Of a stretch of 64,000 bases of DNA, positions 13,953 to 47,877 are shown in pieces (position 1 is the stretch's first letter; each line of letters starts with the position of its first letter). The stretch covers positions 310,001 to 374,000 of the forward strand of contig NZ_CP089975.1 of NCBI RefSeq assembly GCF_029581575.1. Direction: 5' to 3'. A program made the translations under genes and the position numbers. The DNA is from Moraxella nasibovis (GTDB taxonomy: Bacteria > Pseudomonadota > Gammaproteobacteria > Pseudomonadales > Moraxellaceae). The notes beneath the pieces are model-generated. The model searched no databases. It was not told the DNA's origin and saw only the letters and a program-made list of their open reading frames with translations.

Positions 13953-14906
13953 TTAGATGCTGTATTCAAACAAAGCGCTGATGGATTCTTCGTTATTGAT
14001 ACGGCGTAGACTTTCTGCCAGTAGTGAGGCGATGCTCACTTGGCGAATCTTGGCGCAAGATTTGGCGGCGTCTGACAGCGGAATGGTGTCAGTGACGACG
14101 ATCTCATCTAGGGCAGATCCGCTGATGTTGTCGATTGCCTTGCCTGACAGCACAGGGTGGGTGATGTAGCCGACCACACGGCGAGCGCCATTGTCTTTTA
14201 GGGCTTGGGCGGCTTTACACAGCGTACCTGCGGTATCCACGATGTCGTCAATGATGACGCAATCACGACCATCGACATCGCCGATGATGTGCATGACTTG
14301 TGATTCATTGGCTTTTTGGCGGCGCTTATCGATGATGGCAAGGTCGGCATCGCCCAGAAGTTTTGCCATCGCACGCGCACGCACCACACCACCCACATCG
14401 GGAGAGACGACCATGAGGTTATCGTAGTTTTGTTGTTTTAGGTCACTTAGTAAGACTGGCGTGCCATACAGATTGTCCACTGGCACATCAAAGAAACCTT
14501 GGATTTGGTCGGCATGCAGATCCACGACCATCACACGGTCAATGCCTGAGATTGACAGCATGTCCGCCACGACTTTGGCAGAGATTGGCACACGCGCCGA
14601 GCGTGGTCTGCGGTCTTGGCGTGCATAGCCAAAATATGGAATCACTGCCGTGATACGACCGGCACTCGAACGGCGCAGAGCGTCTGCCAAAAGGACGACT
14701 TCCATCAAGTTGTCATTGGTTGGCACGCAGGTCGGTTGTAGGATGAATACATCTTTACCACGCACATTTTCTTTGATTTCGATGGCAATTTCACCATCAG
14801 AAAAGCGAGTGATGTCAGCTTTGCTTAAAGGAATGTGAAGATGGTCAGCGACGGTCTGGGCAAGCTCAGGATTGGCGCTGCCCGAGAAGATGGCCATGTA
14901 TGACAT
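13953..14906 (-). CDS. prs: Ribose-phosphate pyrophosphokinase (PRPP synthase)
   Basis: Makes PRPP from ribose 5-phosphate and ATP for nucleotide, histidine, tryptophan and NAD synthesis. Class I PRPP synthase features: [11 protein letters not shown] at the start, FQ-equivalent ATP region [37 protein letters not shown] flexible loop region, [15 protein letters not shown], and the PRPP-binding loop [13 protein letters not shown]. Length 317 aa is normal. Start ATG 14906 has AGGA upstream; a second in-frame ATG follows three codons later. Own promoter at 14971-14998. Confidence 0.97.
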
Positions 14907-14998: not shown

Positions 14999-15105
14999 AT
15001 TTTCTTGTAACAGTAAGTACAATCTTTAAAATCTGGCTTGTCGGCAGTGTGTCTGTCATTGCGCACCGTGAGTTTACAGGTTTGTCACGCATCATCTGAT
15101 GGGAA

Positions 15106-15137
15106 AAACAAAAAAGCCAATTCCGAAGAACTGGCTT
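15106..15137 (-). terminator. Terminator of the tRNA-Gln transcript
   Basis: Minus strand AAGCCAGTTC, TTCG tetraloop, GAATTGGCTT, then TTTTTGTTTTT: a textbook terminator about 25 bp behind the second tRNA. Confidence 0.9.
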
Positions 15138-15161
15138 AATTGCTCAAGTCATGCTTGAATA

Positions 15162-15237
15162 TGGCAGAGGTAGCTGGACTCGAACCAACGAATGTCAGGA
15201 TCAAAACCTGATGCCTTACCAACTTGGCGATACCCCT
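15162..15237 (-). tRNA. tRNA-Gln (anticodon UUG), second of a tandem pair
   Basis: A 76-nt cloverleaf with encoded CCA. Acceptor arm AGGGGTA / TACCTCT, D arm GCC / GGC, anticodon stem TCAGG / CCTGA with loop TTTTGAT, T stem GTTGG / CCAGC with loop TTCGAGT, discriminator G73. Pair 1-72 is A:U and pair 3-70 is G:U. G3:U70 is the main identity element of tRNA-Ala and is unexpected here (see findings). It differs from its neighbour only in acceptor pairs 6-67 and 7-66 (U:A and A:U). Confidence 0.96.
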
Positions 15238-15265
15238 AGAAAAGTTTTTAAAAAACTTTCAAAAA

Positions 15266-15341
15266 TGGCAGAGGCGGCTGGACTCGAACCAACGAATGTC
15301 AGGATCAAAACCTGATGCCTTACCAACTTGGCGACGCCCCT
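15266..15341 (-). tRNA. tRNA-Gln (anticodon UUG), first of a tandem pair
   Basis: Same cloverleaf as the neighbouring gene about 30 bp downstream, with acceptor arm AGGGGCG / CGCCTCT: pairs 6-67 and 7-66 are C:G and G:C here, so the two copies differ by two compensated pairs and nothing else. It also has A1:U72, the G3:U70 wobble, G73 and an encoded CCA. A good promoter lies directly upstream. The 3' boundary may be off by one base. Confidence 0.95.
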
Positions 15342-15354
15342 ATATAGGCGCCTA

Positions 15355-15382
15355 ATTATACCGAAATTTTTTGATTATGCAA
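15355..15382 (-). promoter_or_regulatory. Promoter of the tRNA-Gln pair
   Basis: Minus strand TTGCAT, 16 bp, TATAAT; the -10 ends 14 bp before the first tRNA base. With the terminator at 15106-15137 this makes a self-contained tRNA unit between ispE and prs. Confidence 0.8.
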
Positions 15383-15457: not shown

Positions 15458-16372
15458 TTACAAGCCATTCAAGCTGTGACAAATCACCGCACGACAAGGC
15501 GCAGCGTCTCGCCAAGCTGCCGCCTGATCTATCATCTCAGCTTCTAACGGCAGAAAAACACAGCTGCCCGTGCCCGTCATGCGTGGCGTGGCGTGGCAGG
15601 GAAGTGCGTGCAGATAAGCCAGTGCATCTTTGACGGCAGGACTGTCTTGGCTTGCGATGGTCTCAAAGCAGTTGTGAAATGGTGGGGTGAGCGTCAAGTC
15701 AAACCAAGTAGCATATGATGATAAATCATTGATAAATAATGACTTTTTGTTAAGATCTGGGTGCTTGAAAAAGTGAGCGGTCGCAAGGTGCGCATCTGGC
15801 ATGAGTAGCAGATAGGCTCGCTTAGGTAGGTGAATGGGCGTTAAGATCTCGCCAATGCCTGTGGCGACGGCATCGCACTGGTGGGCGTGGGCAAAGATAA
15901 AAAACGGCACATCTGCCCCAAGCGTGGCAGCGATGTCAATGAGCGCCTGAGTGTCAAGATTTAAACCCCAAAGCTGATTTAGGGCGATGAGCGTGGTGGC
16001 GCAGTTGGATGAGCCACCACCAAGTCCTGCCCCTGTGGGAATGTGCTTGTCCAGATGGATATGCACGCCTTGTACTTGCTTGGGGGAGTGCTTGGCAAGG
16101 GCGTGCGCGGCTTTGATGATCAGATTGTCATCCAGGTTTTTGGTGAGATGACTTGCCCCTGTCAGGCTGATCGGCGGTATGCCATTTTCCGTGTCGCCAC
16201 CGCCTAAGCCAGCACTGTCCATGTCATCATACAGACGAAACGCCAACCAATCACCAAAATCAAGCGCTCGAAACACGCTTTGTAAGTCGTGATAGCCATC
16301 AAGGCGCTGGGCGGTGATGTGCAAAAACAGATTGATCTTGGCAGGGGAAAACAGGCGAAGTGTATGCATCAT
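15458..16372 (-). CDS. ispE: 4-diphosphocytidyl-2-C-methyl-D-erythritol kinase
   Basis: GHMP kinase of the MEP isoprenoid pathway. Shows the N-terminal FSPAKINLFLHITAQR with the catalytic lysine, DGYHDLQSVF, the ATP loop PTGAGLGGGSSNCATTL, the catalytic aspartate in LGADVPFF, and the C-terminal MTGTGSCVF loop. Starts at ATG 16372 or 16369 fit the family N-terminus and follow GAGGG; an in-frame ATG at 16390 would overlap the end of lolB by 11 bp. Translationally linked to lolB in the conserved lolB-ispE arrangement. Confidence 0.95.
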   Translation of the reverse strand: MMHTLRLFSPAKINLFLHITAQRLDGYHDLQSVFRALDFGDWLAFRLYDDMDSAGLGGGDTENGIPPISLTGASHLTKNLDDNLIIKAAHALAKHSPKQVQGVHIHLDKHIPTGAGLGGGSSNCATTLIALNQLWGLNLDTQALIDIAATLGADVPFFIFAHAHQCDAVATGIGEILTPIHLPKRAYLLLMPDAHLATAHFFKHPDLNKKSLFINDLSSYATWFDLTLTPPFHNCFETIASQDSPAVKDALAYLHALPCHATPRMTGTGSCVFLPLEAEMIDQAAAWRDAAPCRAVICHSLNGL

Positions 16373-16379
16373 GCCCTCA

Positions 16380-16958
16380 TCATTTGCCATGCACGATGGT
16401 CATGACGACACGATGACCGTCGGTATGGGTGATGCGCAGGCGATTTGGCAGTGTGGATTTGTATTCAAAGCTGGCTGTCCAGTCGCCATTGACAGCGTGG
16501 ATGAGCTTGCCTTGTTGGTCGTAGCCTTGCTGTGTGTCGCTTGGCGCACTGCGTCCGACGATCCAGTGTGGCAGCTGACTGATGGGTGCTTGCCAGCCTG
16601 TCGCTTGTAGTAAGAGCGCCTCTGGCGTGGTGGCGCTGATCGTGCCTGTGCGTTCGCTGCTTAGCATGGCGGTCTGTCCGTCAAAGCTGATGGCGGTGGC
16701 GCCGATGCCAAGTGCGCCTGTCAGATCGATGGCGAATCTGTCACCTTCTTGCGCCCATGTATAAAATGCCGTACCAGACTGGCTGCCGTCTGTCGACACG
16801 CTCGTTATGCCAATTTTGCCGCTGATGTTGAATTCGATAGGCGCATTAACAGTGTGGCTGACTGGGGTTGGTGTGGCGTGAGGTAGGGTTTGGCAGCCTG
16901 TCAAAAACAGCGCACCGACGCACAAAGACAGACAAGAATGGCGGAGGGTAAATTTCAT
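16380..16958 (-). CDS. lolB: Outer-membrane lipoprotein LolB
   Basis: Receives lipoproteins from LolA and inserts them in the outer membrane. A lipoprotein signal (SLCVGALFLTGC, cysteine at residue 22) is followed by the LolB fold: FNISGKIGITS, SGTAFYTWAQEGDRFAIDLTGALG and the hydrophobic-loop region, then LPHWIVGRSAPSD. Length 192 aa is typical. Placed directly before ispE, as in many gammaproteobacteria, which supports the assignment despite low sequence conservation of the family. Confidence 0.9.
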   Translation of the reverse strand: MKFTLRHSCLSLCVGALFLTGCQTLPHATPTPVSHTVNAPIEFNISGKIGITSVSTDGSQSGTAFYTWAQEGDRFAIDLTGALGIGATAISFDGQTAMLSSERTGTISATTPEALLLQATGWQAPISQLPHWIVGRSAPSDTQQGYDQQGKLIHAVNGDWTASFEYKSTLPNRLRITHTDGHRVVMTIVHGK

Positions 16959-46896: not shown

Positions 46897-47877
46897 CTAC
46901 ACCACACCAAGACTGCCTTGATGAATGAGTGGCGCTGTATCCCAGTGCTTGATGGCAAATTGCAATATCTCACCGACCGTGCCATCTGCCATGTCATCTG
47001 CGATGGGCTGTTTTAGCAAAGTCAAAGCATGGACGAGCAGCTCACTTGGTCGAGCGTGCTTGATCGGCTGAGCAAGATTTTGTTTGGAGAGTTTTTGTCC
47101 GTCTGCATTGTGCAGTAGCGGCAGATGATAAAAATGATCCGCTGTGGGCAGGTGTGCGGCATGATTGATGGCAAGCTGGGCGACAGTCATGGGCATGATG
47201 TCGAGCCCCCGCATGATGTGGCTGATGTTTTGTAAGCCATCGTCAATGGCACAAGCAAGGATGTAGTTAATCATGCCGTTTTGGCGTTTGATGACCACAT
47301 CGCCAAGACTCTTGGCAGGATTGTCCCAAACGACCCCTTGAATGCCATCAAAAAATGCCGTCAGCGTGTCTGGCAGGCATAGGCGGATTTTGCTGTCTGG
47401 GTGCCCAATATCGTGATGACTGTGTAAGCACAATCTAGGATAGATGGGTGGTGTGTTTAAGCCTTCGGTGGCGTTCATCTGCCGCAGCACTTCACTAAAA
47501 ATCACAGGCGAGATGGCATCTTTGGGGTGCTGACGAAAATGCTCGCTCAGCTGTTTTCTTGAGCATTGGCACGCATAAGTTTGGGCGTGCAGTGCGTGAA
47601 TGTATTCTTCATAAATCGCCATGCGGTTTGACTGATAAACCGTCTCGCCGTCCCAGTGCAAGCCCAGATTTTGCAAATCTTCTAAGATGGATGCGCTGTA
47701 TTCTGCCTTGCACCGCTCAAAATCCACATCTTCTATGCGAAGTAGCCACCGACCACCAAGTGATTTGATATGACAAAAGCTCGCCACAGCAGTCGTGAGC
47801 GAGCCTAAGTGCAGATGTCCTGTCGGCGATGGGGCAAAACGCCCAATGACAGGACGAGCATTTGGTAAATTTACCAT
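46897..47877 (-). CDS. gluQ: Glutamyl-Q tRNA(Asp) synthetase
   Basis: A truncated GluRS paralogue that attaches glutamate to queuosine-34 of tRNA-Asp. Shows RFAPSPTGHLHLGSLTTAVA (HIGH-equivalent), the zinc-binding CQCSRKQL with a later Tyr/Cys pair (YPRLCLH), and the KMSKS-equivalent QKLSKQNLAQ, while the anticodon-binding domain is missing. 326 aa. Lies 61 bp behind dksA on the same strand, the conserved dksA-gluQ pairing. Confidence 0.94.
   Translation of the reverse strand: MVNLPNARPVIGRFAPSPTGHLHLGSLTTAVASFCHIKSLGGRWLLRIEDVDFERCKAEYSASILEDLQNLGLHWDGETVYQSNRMAIYEEYIHALHAQTYACQCSRKQLSEHFRQHPKDAISPVIFSEVLRQMNATEGLNTPPIYPRLCLHSHHDIGHPDSKIRLCLPDTLTAFFDGIQGVVWDNPAKSLGDVVIKRQNGMINYILACAIDDGLQNISHIMRGLDIMPMTVAQLAINHAAHLPTADHFYHLPLLHNADGQKLSKQNLAQPIKHARPSELLVHALTLLKQPIADDMADGTVGEILQFAIKHWDTAPLIHQGSLGVV

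Follow-up and report, generated by a model that had tools for sequence, protein, structure and literature searches.

The G3:U70 pair of tRNA-Ala is the classic example of a single base pair that determines an amino acid, and its occurrence in the glutamine tRNA genes of Moraxella nasibovis raises the question of whether such tRNAs are read by alanyl-tRNA synthetase (AlaRS), by glutaminyl-tRNA synthetase (GlnRS) or by both. The pair is described as the main alanine determinant in the part of PMC9976931 available to us, and excerpts of PMC7302879 state that bacterial AlaRS charges only G3-U70 tRNAs. The stretch analysed here, referred to as the window, comprises 64 kb (positions 310001–374000) of the 2.23-Mb, single-contig genome, and ARAGORN places in it two tandem tRNA-Gln(UUG) genes, both on the minus strand, in the following setting:

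13953..14906, minus strand: open reading frame, downstream neighbour, which we take to be prs, ribose-phosphate pyrophosphokinase
15114..15137, minus strand: terminator-like hairpin with a T-rich tail, 3' of the tRNA pair (fold of 15090–15140, −15.2 kcal/mol, z −3.68)
15162..15237, minus strand: tRNA-Gln(UUG) copy 1, downstream, with A1:U72, G3:U70, U6:A67, A7:U66, G73 and encoded CCA (ARAGORN; Rfam RF00005, 59.5 bits)
Bases of copy 1, minus strand, from the sequence: base 1 at 15237, G3 at 15235, U70 at 15168, base 72 at 15166, base 73 at 15165
15266..15341, minus strand: tRNA-Gln(UUG) copy 2, upstream, with A1:U72, G3:U70, C6:G67, G7:C66, G73 and encoded CCA (ARAGORN; Rfam, 58.9 bits)
Bases of copy 2, minus strand, from the sequence: base 1 at 15341, G3 at 15339, U70 at 15272, base 72 at 15270, base 73 at 15269
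15355..15382, minus strand: possible promoter 5' of copy 2 (TTGCAT, 16 bases, TATAAT), read by eye
15458..16390, minus strand: open reading frame, upstream neighbour, presumably ispE

Both genes belong to tRNA-Gln by their UUG anticodon and their cloverleaf, which is recovered by ARAGORN and by Rfam RF00005. The acceptor stems share A1:U72, G2:C71, G3:U70, G4:C69 and G5:C68, followed by G73 and the encoded CCA, and the copies differ only at positions 6, 7, 66 and 67, that is, by two compensated pairs. A preliminary description of the locus had reported G3:U70, A1:U72 and G73 in both genes together with these compensated differences, and the sequence bears it out on each count. The weak first pair and the discriminator G73 of bacterial tRNA-Gln are present in both copies as A1:U72 and G73. 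E. coli tRNA-Gln has G3:C70 and U1:A72, and the G3:C70 of its identity set is replaced by G3:U70 in both Moraxella copies. Folded as single strands, both tRNAs are cloverleaf-like with a stability not above that of shuffled sequences (z −0.74 and −0.83). The scan for terminators found one against a shuffle mean of 0.9, a count that is itself no evidence, and the putative promoter is missing from the promoter scan because its −35 element fits at only three of six positions. The presumed prs and ispE genes are conserved neighbours, one or both lying near tRNA-Gln in 23 of the 27 loci of relatives tested.

Among the 49 tRNAs of the M. nasibovis genome, G3:U70 is found in all five tRNA-Ala, in both tRNA-Gln and in none of the 42 others. 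The 49 include no third tRNA-Gln and none with a CUG anticodon, so both glutamine codons must be served by these two genes. Each tRNA-Gln has the G3:U70 element of alanine identity, and its pairs 2 to 4 (G2:C71, G3:U70, G4:C69) are identical to those of the tRNA-Ala of the same genome. The ends of the stem are not of the alanine type, with G1:C72 and A73 in all five tRNA-Ala versus A1:U72 and G73 in tRNA-Gln. The U1:A72 pair that marks GatCAB substrates is likewise absent from tRNA-Gln, both copies having A1:U72 as opposed to U1:A72 in both tRNA-Asn. Amidotransferases rely on U1-A72 according to excerpts of PMC9976931, and A1:U72 may therefore keep tRNA-Gln out of the GatCAB route. Elsewhere in the genome, a tRNA-Phe (G000:C1:1779830-1779905) has a C5:A68 mismatch within its acceptor stem. 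An initiator-like tRNA-Met (G000:C1:2050697-2050773) has U1 opposite U72, the usual state of this tRNA being a C1:A72 mismatch.

The comparison of pairs 1-72 and 3-70 among relatives that the preliminary description proposed was made across the genus and three related genera. With a pattern covering the 3' half of tRNA-Gln, the gene could be read in 19 of the 22 Moraxella genomes; the three without a match (G211, G220 and G224) were left out, G220 giving a single weak DNA match and G211 having no alaS or glnS match either. U70 is present in both copies in 16 of the 19 readable genomes and C70 in both copies in three (G215, G219 and G223), so that the U70 of copy 1 (position 15168, A on the plus strand) corresponds to C in three genomes placed in Moraxella. 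All 16 loci from the three related genera have C70 and A1:U72. That U70 recurs in the two copies and across 16 of 19 readable genomes bears out the earlier statement that the pair is not a single error and rules out a sequencing or assembly error or a pair of tRNA pseudogenes; this reading, to which the cloverleaf found by two programs and the lack of any other tRNA-Gln among the 49 are also opposed, has in our estimate practically no chance of being correct.

The C70 tRNA-Gln of G215 and G223 differ from copy 1 of the window at position 70 and nowhere else. Among the 16 U70 genomes, six combine the two stem types, one in each copy, and in ten the two copies have identical letters at positions 66 and 67. 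In a tree built from joined GlnRS and AlaRS sequences (25 rows, with G219, G223 and G190 left out because of partial data), Moraxella forms one clade (99.9/100), with U70 in both branches of its deepest split (99.5/99). G215, the only C70 Moraxella in this tree, is nested within the genus at a position whose exact placement is weakly supported. G223 was placed from half the data in earlier trees, and G219, also represented by half the data, is placed within the genus in some trees and outside it in others. Hand parsimony on this pattern suggests a single gain of U70 at the base of Moraxella, with losses in G215 and G223.

The preliminary description had advised looking for glnS and gatCAB, and genes for glnS and gatB were both found in M. 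nasibovis. The cognate GlnRS is encoded by a 588-aa glnS frame (TIGR00440, 674 bits, above the cut-off), and alaS is present as an 889-aa frame. Two AlaRS residues were compared, those aligned to E. coli N303 and D400, which we take to be the readers of G3:U70; both are unchanged in 27 of 27 rows, including M. nasibovis, in an alignment that has no row for G223. An altered AlaRS that is blind to G3:U70 is thus not supported at these sites. GlnRS was compared at 44 distinct chosen sites, among which no change matching U70 was found; neighbouring residues vary. D235 is kept in all 15 U70 rows and, counting every row, in 26 of 28, the exceptions being G188 (E) and G227 (A). Because the C70 tRNA of G215 differs from the U70 form at position 70 alone and its GlnRS differs from that of M. 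nasibovis at one of the 44 sites, neither partner seems to have had to change. Judged from these alignments, neither AlaRS nor GlnRS changes along with U70 at the sites compared. Position 136 of GlnRS is F in 27 of 28 Moraxellaceae rows (the exception being G227, with L) and Leu in E. coli and P. aeruginosa; F136 occurs in species of both the C70 and the U70 type and so shows no association with U70, but it may go with A1:U72. A further 329-aa frame has a partial match to the glnS family (47542–47844, minus strand) and is probably GluQ-RS.

We consider it likely that the two genes encode normal, GlnRS-charged tRNA-Gln that tolerate a U70 acquired early in the history of Moraxella and undergo little alanylation at most. 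A C70-to-U70 transition would have made the wobble pair G3:U70 out of G3:C70, and GlnRS would charge the resulting tRNA directly, presumably reading G3 from the minor groove and accepting the wobble. AlaRS could see G3:U70 and would nevertheless charge tRNA-Gln poorly because of the A:U pair at 1:72, the G at 73 and competition from GlnRS. Given a small cost, U70 may have spread through drift and homogenisation of the copies, and the step would be reversible, as the apparent reversions in G215 and G223 suggest. The preliminary description had held that the wobble was kept by selection or gene conversion; the selective part of that claim gains no support from the C70 tRNAs of G215 and G223, which otherwise equal copy 1, or from the near-identity of the G215 GlnRS at the chosen sites, and the C70/U70 pattern fits what would be expected of near-neutral change with copy homogenisation.

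Several considerations count against this explanation. Excerpts of PMC9976931 list pairs 1-72 and 3-70 as important for glutamine identity, pair 3-70 belonging to that of E. coli, so U70 could weaken recognition by GlnRS, and the compared AlaRS residues are intact, so alanylation stays possible. We judge some alanylation of U70 tRNA-Gln in vitro to be likely; alanine at glutamine codons in cells is no more than possible. On the other side, the same excerpts describe a G1.U72 first pair as an antideterminant for E. coli AlaRS, and pair 1:72 can therefore matter; the low alanylation of a choanoflagellate tRNAGln with G4-U69 in vitro (4–7%, PMC7302879) also counts in favour. The earlier suggestion that G73 lowers alanylation is plausible as far as it goes, but G73 in E. 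coli tRNA-Ala is reported to modulate rather than block alanylation (PMC6451123, available in part), and the viral control described below has no significant G73 bias.

The intact AlaRS residues and the identity of pairs 2 to 4 with tRNA-Ala would also suit a tRNA of dual identity, in which AlaRS charges a measurable share of tRNA-Gln and glutamine codons are read as alanine at a low rate, constantly or under stress, in a manner that is tolerated or useful. Precedents can be cited for such a tRNA, as alanine can be wrongly attached to human tRNA variants that carry G3:U70 (PMC11415595, in the portion available) and a choanoflagellate tRNAGln(G4-U69) was 4–7% alanylated in vitro, compared with 30–40% for tRNAThr (excerpts of PMC7302879). 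We nevertheless regard it as unlikely, given that A1:U72 and G73 differ from tRNA-Ala and that the pair, present in 16 of 19 readable genomes, was lost in G215 and G223 with no other change in the tRNA, which does not suggest a maintained function.

A normal tRNA-Gln with a tolerated U70 resembles several known systems in part. With canonical, GlnRS-charged bacterial tRNA-Gln it shares the UUG anticodon, G2:C71, G73, the cloverleaf and a glnS gene in the genome, and it departs from them in having G3:U70 for G3:C70 and A1:U72 where A72 prevails. The choanoflagellate tRNAGln(G4-U69) and animal tRNAThr(G4-U69) likewise place an AlaRS-responsive G:U pair in the acceptor stem of a non-alanine tRNA, and the animal tRNAThr is mischarged by AlaRS and edited by ATD or ThrRS (PMC7302879, in excerpt); the Moraxella pair differs in lying at 3:70, the site read by bacterial AlaRS, in a bacterial host. 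The human variants, which comprise tRNA-Pro, -Cys, -Thr and -Gly (PMC11415595, in the portion available), have G3:U70 itself in non-alanine tRNAs; they are mutants, whereas the Moraxella pair is fixed in both tRNA-Gln genes in most readable genomes. Allo-tRNAs, which according to the accessible part of PMC7609411 insert mainly alanine and serine, are natural G3:U70 tRNAs besides ordinary tRNA-Ala, as in Moraxella, but have unusual 8/4 or 9/3 structures, while the Moraxella tRNA-Gln is ordinary and presumably essential. Our literature search, over sources available in part and with misses likely, returned no report of an ordinary bacterial tRNA-Gln with G3:U70.

To place the Moraxella tRNAs among other bacteria, GTDB species were scanned for the U70 form of tRNA-Gln. 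The scan gave at least 120 matching stretches, and all 120 listed were read; at least 107 stretches carry a G3:U70 tRNA-Gln (107 of the 120 matches listed), 11 have A3:U70 and two hold no tRNA-Gln. The listed G3:U70 matches include Moraxella, Methylotenera, Methylophilus, Methyloversatilis, Azonexus, Dechloromonas, Noviherbaspirillum, Rhodoferax, Variovorax, Limnobacter, Vogesella, Thalassolituus and Oceanobacter, as well as single MAGs of Desulfobacterales, Saccharibacteria and Clostridiales. The first pair of the 116 U70 tRNAs in the matches listed is U1:A72 in 77, A1:U72 in 38 and a mismatch in one. Stem bodies are unlike between the Moraxella, Methylotenera-like and Thalassolituus-like U70 tRNA-Gln, from which we infer that G3:U70 arose in tRNA-Gln several times independently. 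Across 369 genomes sampled evenly from the class, the complete G3:U70 pattern was found in one, M. nasibovis itself, and the G3:C70 pattern in 194, the strict pattern missing the remaining 174. Among 150 G3:C70 tRNA-Gln rows from this sample, taken from the matches listed and counted by hand, 143 have A72 and seven U72. The G3:U70 form of tRNA-Gln is thus rare across the class sample, yet recurrent.

This recurrence could be taken to mean that U70 is under positive selection for a reason unrelated to identity, such as stem flexibility, turnover of the GlnRS product, RNase P processing or rejection by another enzyme, and it is in keeping with such a benefit that six of the 16 U70 genomes retain U70 in copies that differ at 6:67 and 7:66. 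Copy homogenisation accounts for the latter equally well, however, as the two copies agree at 66 and 67 in ten of the 16, and with C70 in G215 and G223 and the pair in only one of the 369 class-sample genomes we judge positive selection very improbable. The recurrence also bears on a bolder claim: with the alanine signal present in tRNA-Gln of Moraxella and, separately, of several other lineages, and the G3:U70 reader kept in the Moraxella AlaRS, a detectable share of glutamine codons may be read as alanine in normal Moraxella cells. We think such decoding rather unlikely; if true, it would amount to a standing, lineage-wide ambiguity of the genetic code, one that a single transition is enough to abolish, G215 and G223 being examples.

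How strictly alanine's pair is reserved can be gauged from other tRNAs. None of the 119 tRNAs on the 120 listed GTDB stretches that are neither tRNA-Ala nor tRNA-Gln has G3:U70. Ten Moraxella genomes (nine with U70, and G215) were scanned for tRNA 3' ends with U70, the rows being mostly assigned by eye against M. nasibovis tRNAs, and ARAGORN called a tRNA or tmRNA at 12 of the 16 candidate places checked. Beyond tRNA-Ala, tRNA-Gln and tmRNA, these contained one confirmed G3:U70 tRNA, the tRNA-Leu(GAG) of G207. This tRNA has C2:G71 and A73 along with G3:U70; its M. nasibovis counterpart has G3:C70.

A larger set came from viral contigs retrieved with baits for the tRNAs of Gln, Trp and Lys. From 2787 tRNAs called, we removed 397 of the bait isotype, 345 duplicates, 23 that were poorly paired and nine that were unassigned; loci L340 and L343, found by two baits, were counted under the Gln bait only. 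G3:U70 is present in 82 of 83 viral tRNA-Ala and in 25 of 1930 non-alanine tRNAs across many isotypes, in a set of tRNAs that may face weaker constraint than those of hosts. The alanine mark thus appears, from these counts, to be strongly but not absolutely reserved. The preliminary description had called the pair avoided in other tRNAs, which is true of M. nasibovis (none of 42) and does not hold as a rule, given the tRNA-Leu(GAG) of G207 and the 25 viral exceptions. Comparing viral G3:U70 with G3:C70 tRNAs, A73 occurs in 12 versus 385 and G73 in six versus 118, with no significant excess of G73 among the G3:U70 tRNAs (p=0.40), and G73 alone does not explain the exceptions. Stretches matching the bait patterns numbered seven with U70 versus at least 120 with C70 for Gln, four versus 117 for Trp, and none versus at least 120 for Lys with A73. 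ARAGORN reports G3:U70 in six of the seven Gln U70 stretches, the start of the seventh being set one base early; all four Trp U70 matches are G3:U70, two of them with U1 opposite U72. G73 as a general permissive base, toward which these bait counts leaned, was rejected on the wider viral table, and a tolerance specific to Gln was also set aside, viral tRNA-Gln with G3:U70 (three of 40 with G3:Y70, bait excluded) being not clearly above other isotypes. The viral non-alanine G3:U70 tRNAs include L457, L480, L509, L517 and L533. L457 is a tRNA-Tyr whose G1:C72, G2:C71, G3:U70, G4:C69 and A73 equal M. nasibovis tRNA-Ala at those places.

The finding is real, and milder than its first framing. Living species carry alanine's pair in a presumably essential non-alanine tRNA, and some relatives have a tRNA-Gln one base away. 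Because the tRNA-Gln is otherwise normal-looking, it offers a natural test of the strictness of the alanine signal, and the U70 and C70 forms constitute a matched natural comparison for asking to what extent other bases, competition or EF-Tu keep AlaRS away, and if low glutamine-to-alanine decoding is tolerated. In annotation, identity calls that rest on G3:U70 alone would misjudge the Moraxella tRNA-Gln genes.

A tRNA-like element was seen alongside, outside the window. This 234-nt element (L312:33-266, minus strand, in G215, and near-identical in G222, L313) ends in a tRNA-like manner, with GGGCATG/CATGTCC, G3:U70, A73, CCA and a T-arm. It is not called as a gene by ARAGORN, its sole Rfam matches are weak ones to tmRNA that fall short of the gathering score, phage and plasmid records gave no match, and its fold has no unusual stability (z −0.57). 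It is flanked on one side by a divergent gene for an RtcR regulator and on the other by a gene whose product has an RNA_lig_T4_1 domain, and in view of these neighbours it may belong to an RNA-repair operon as a tRNA-like RNA.
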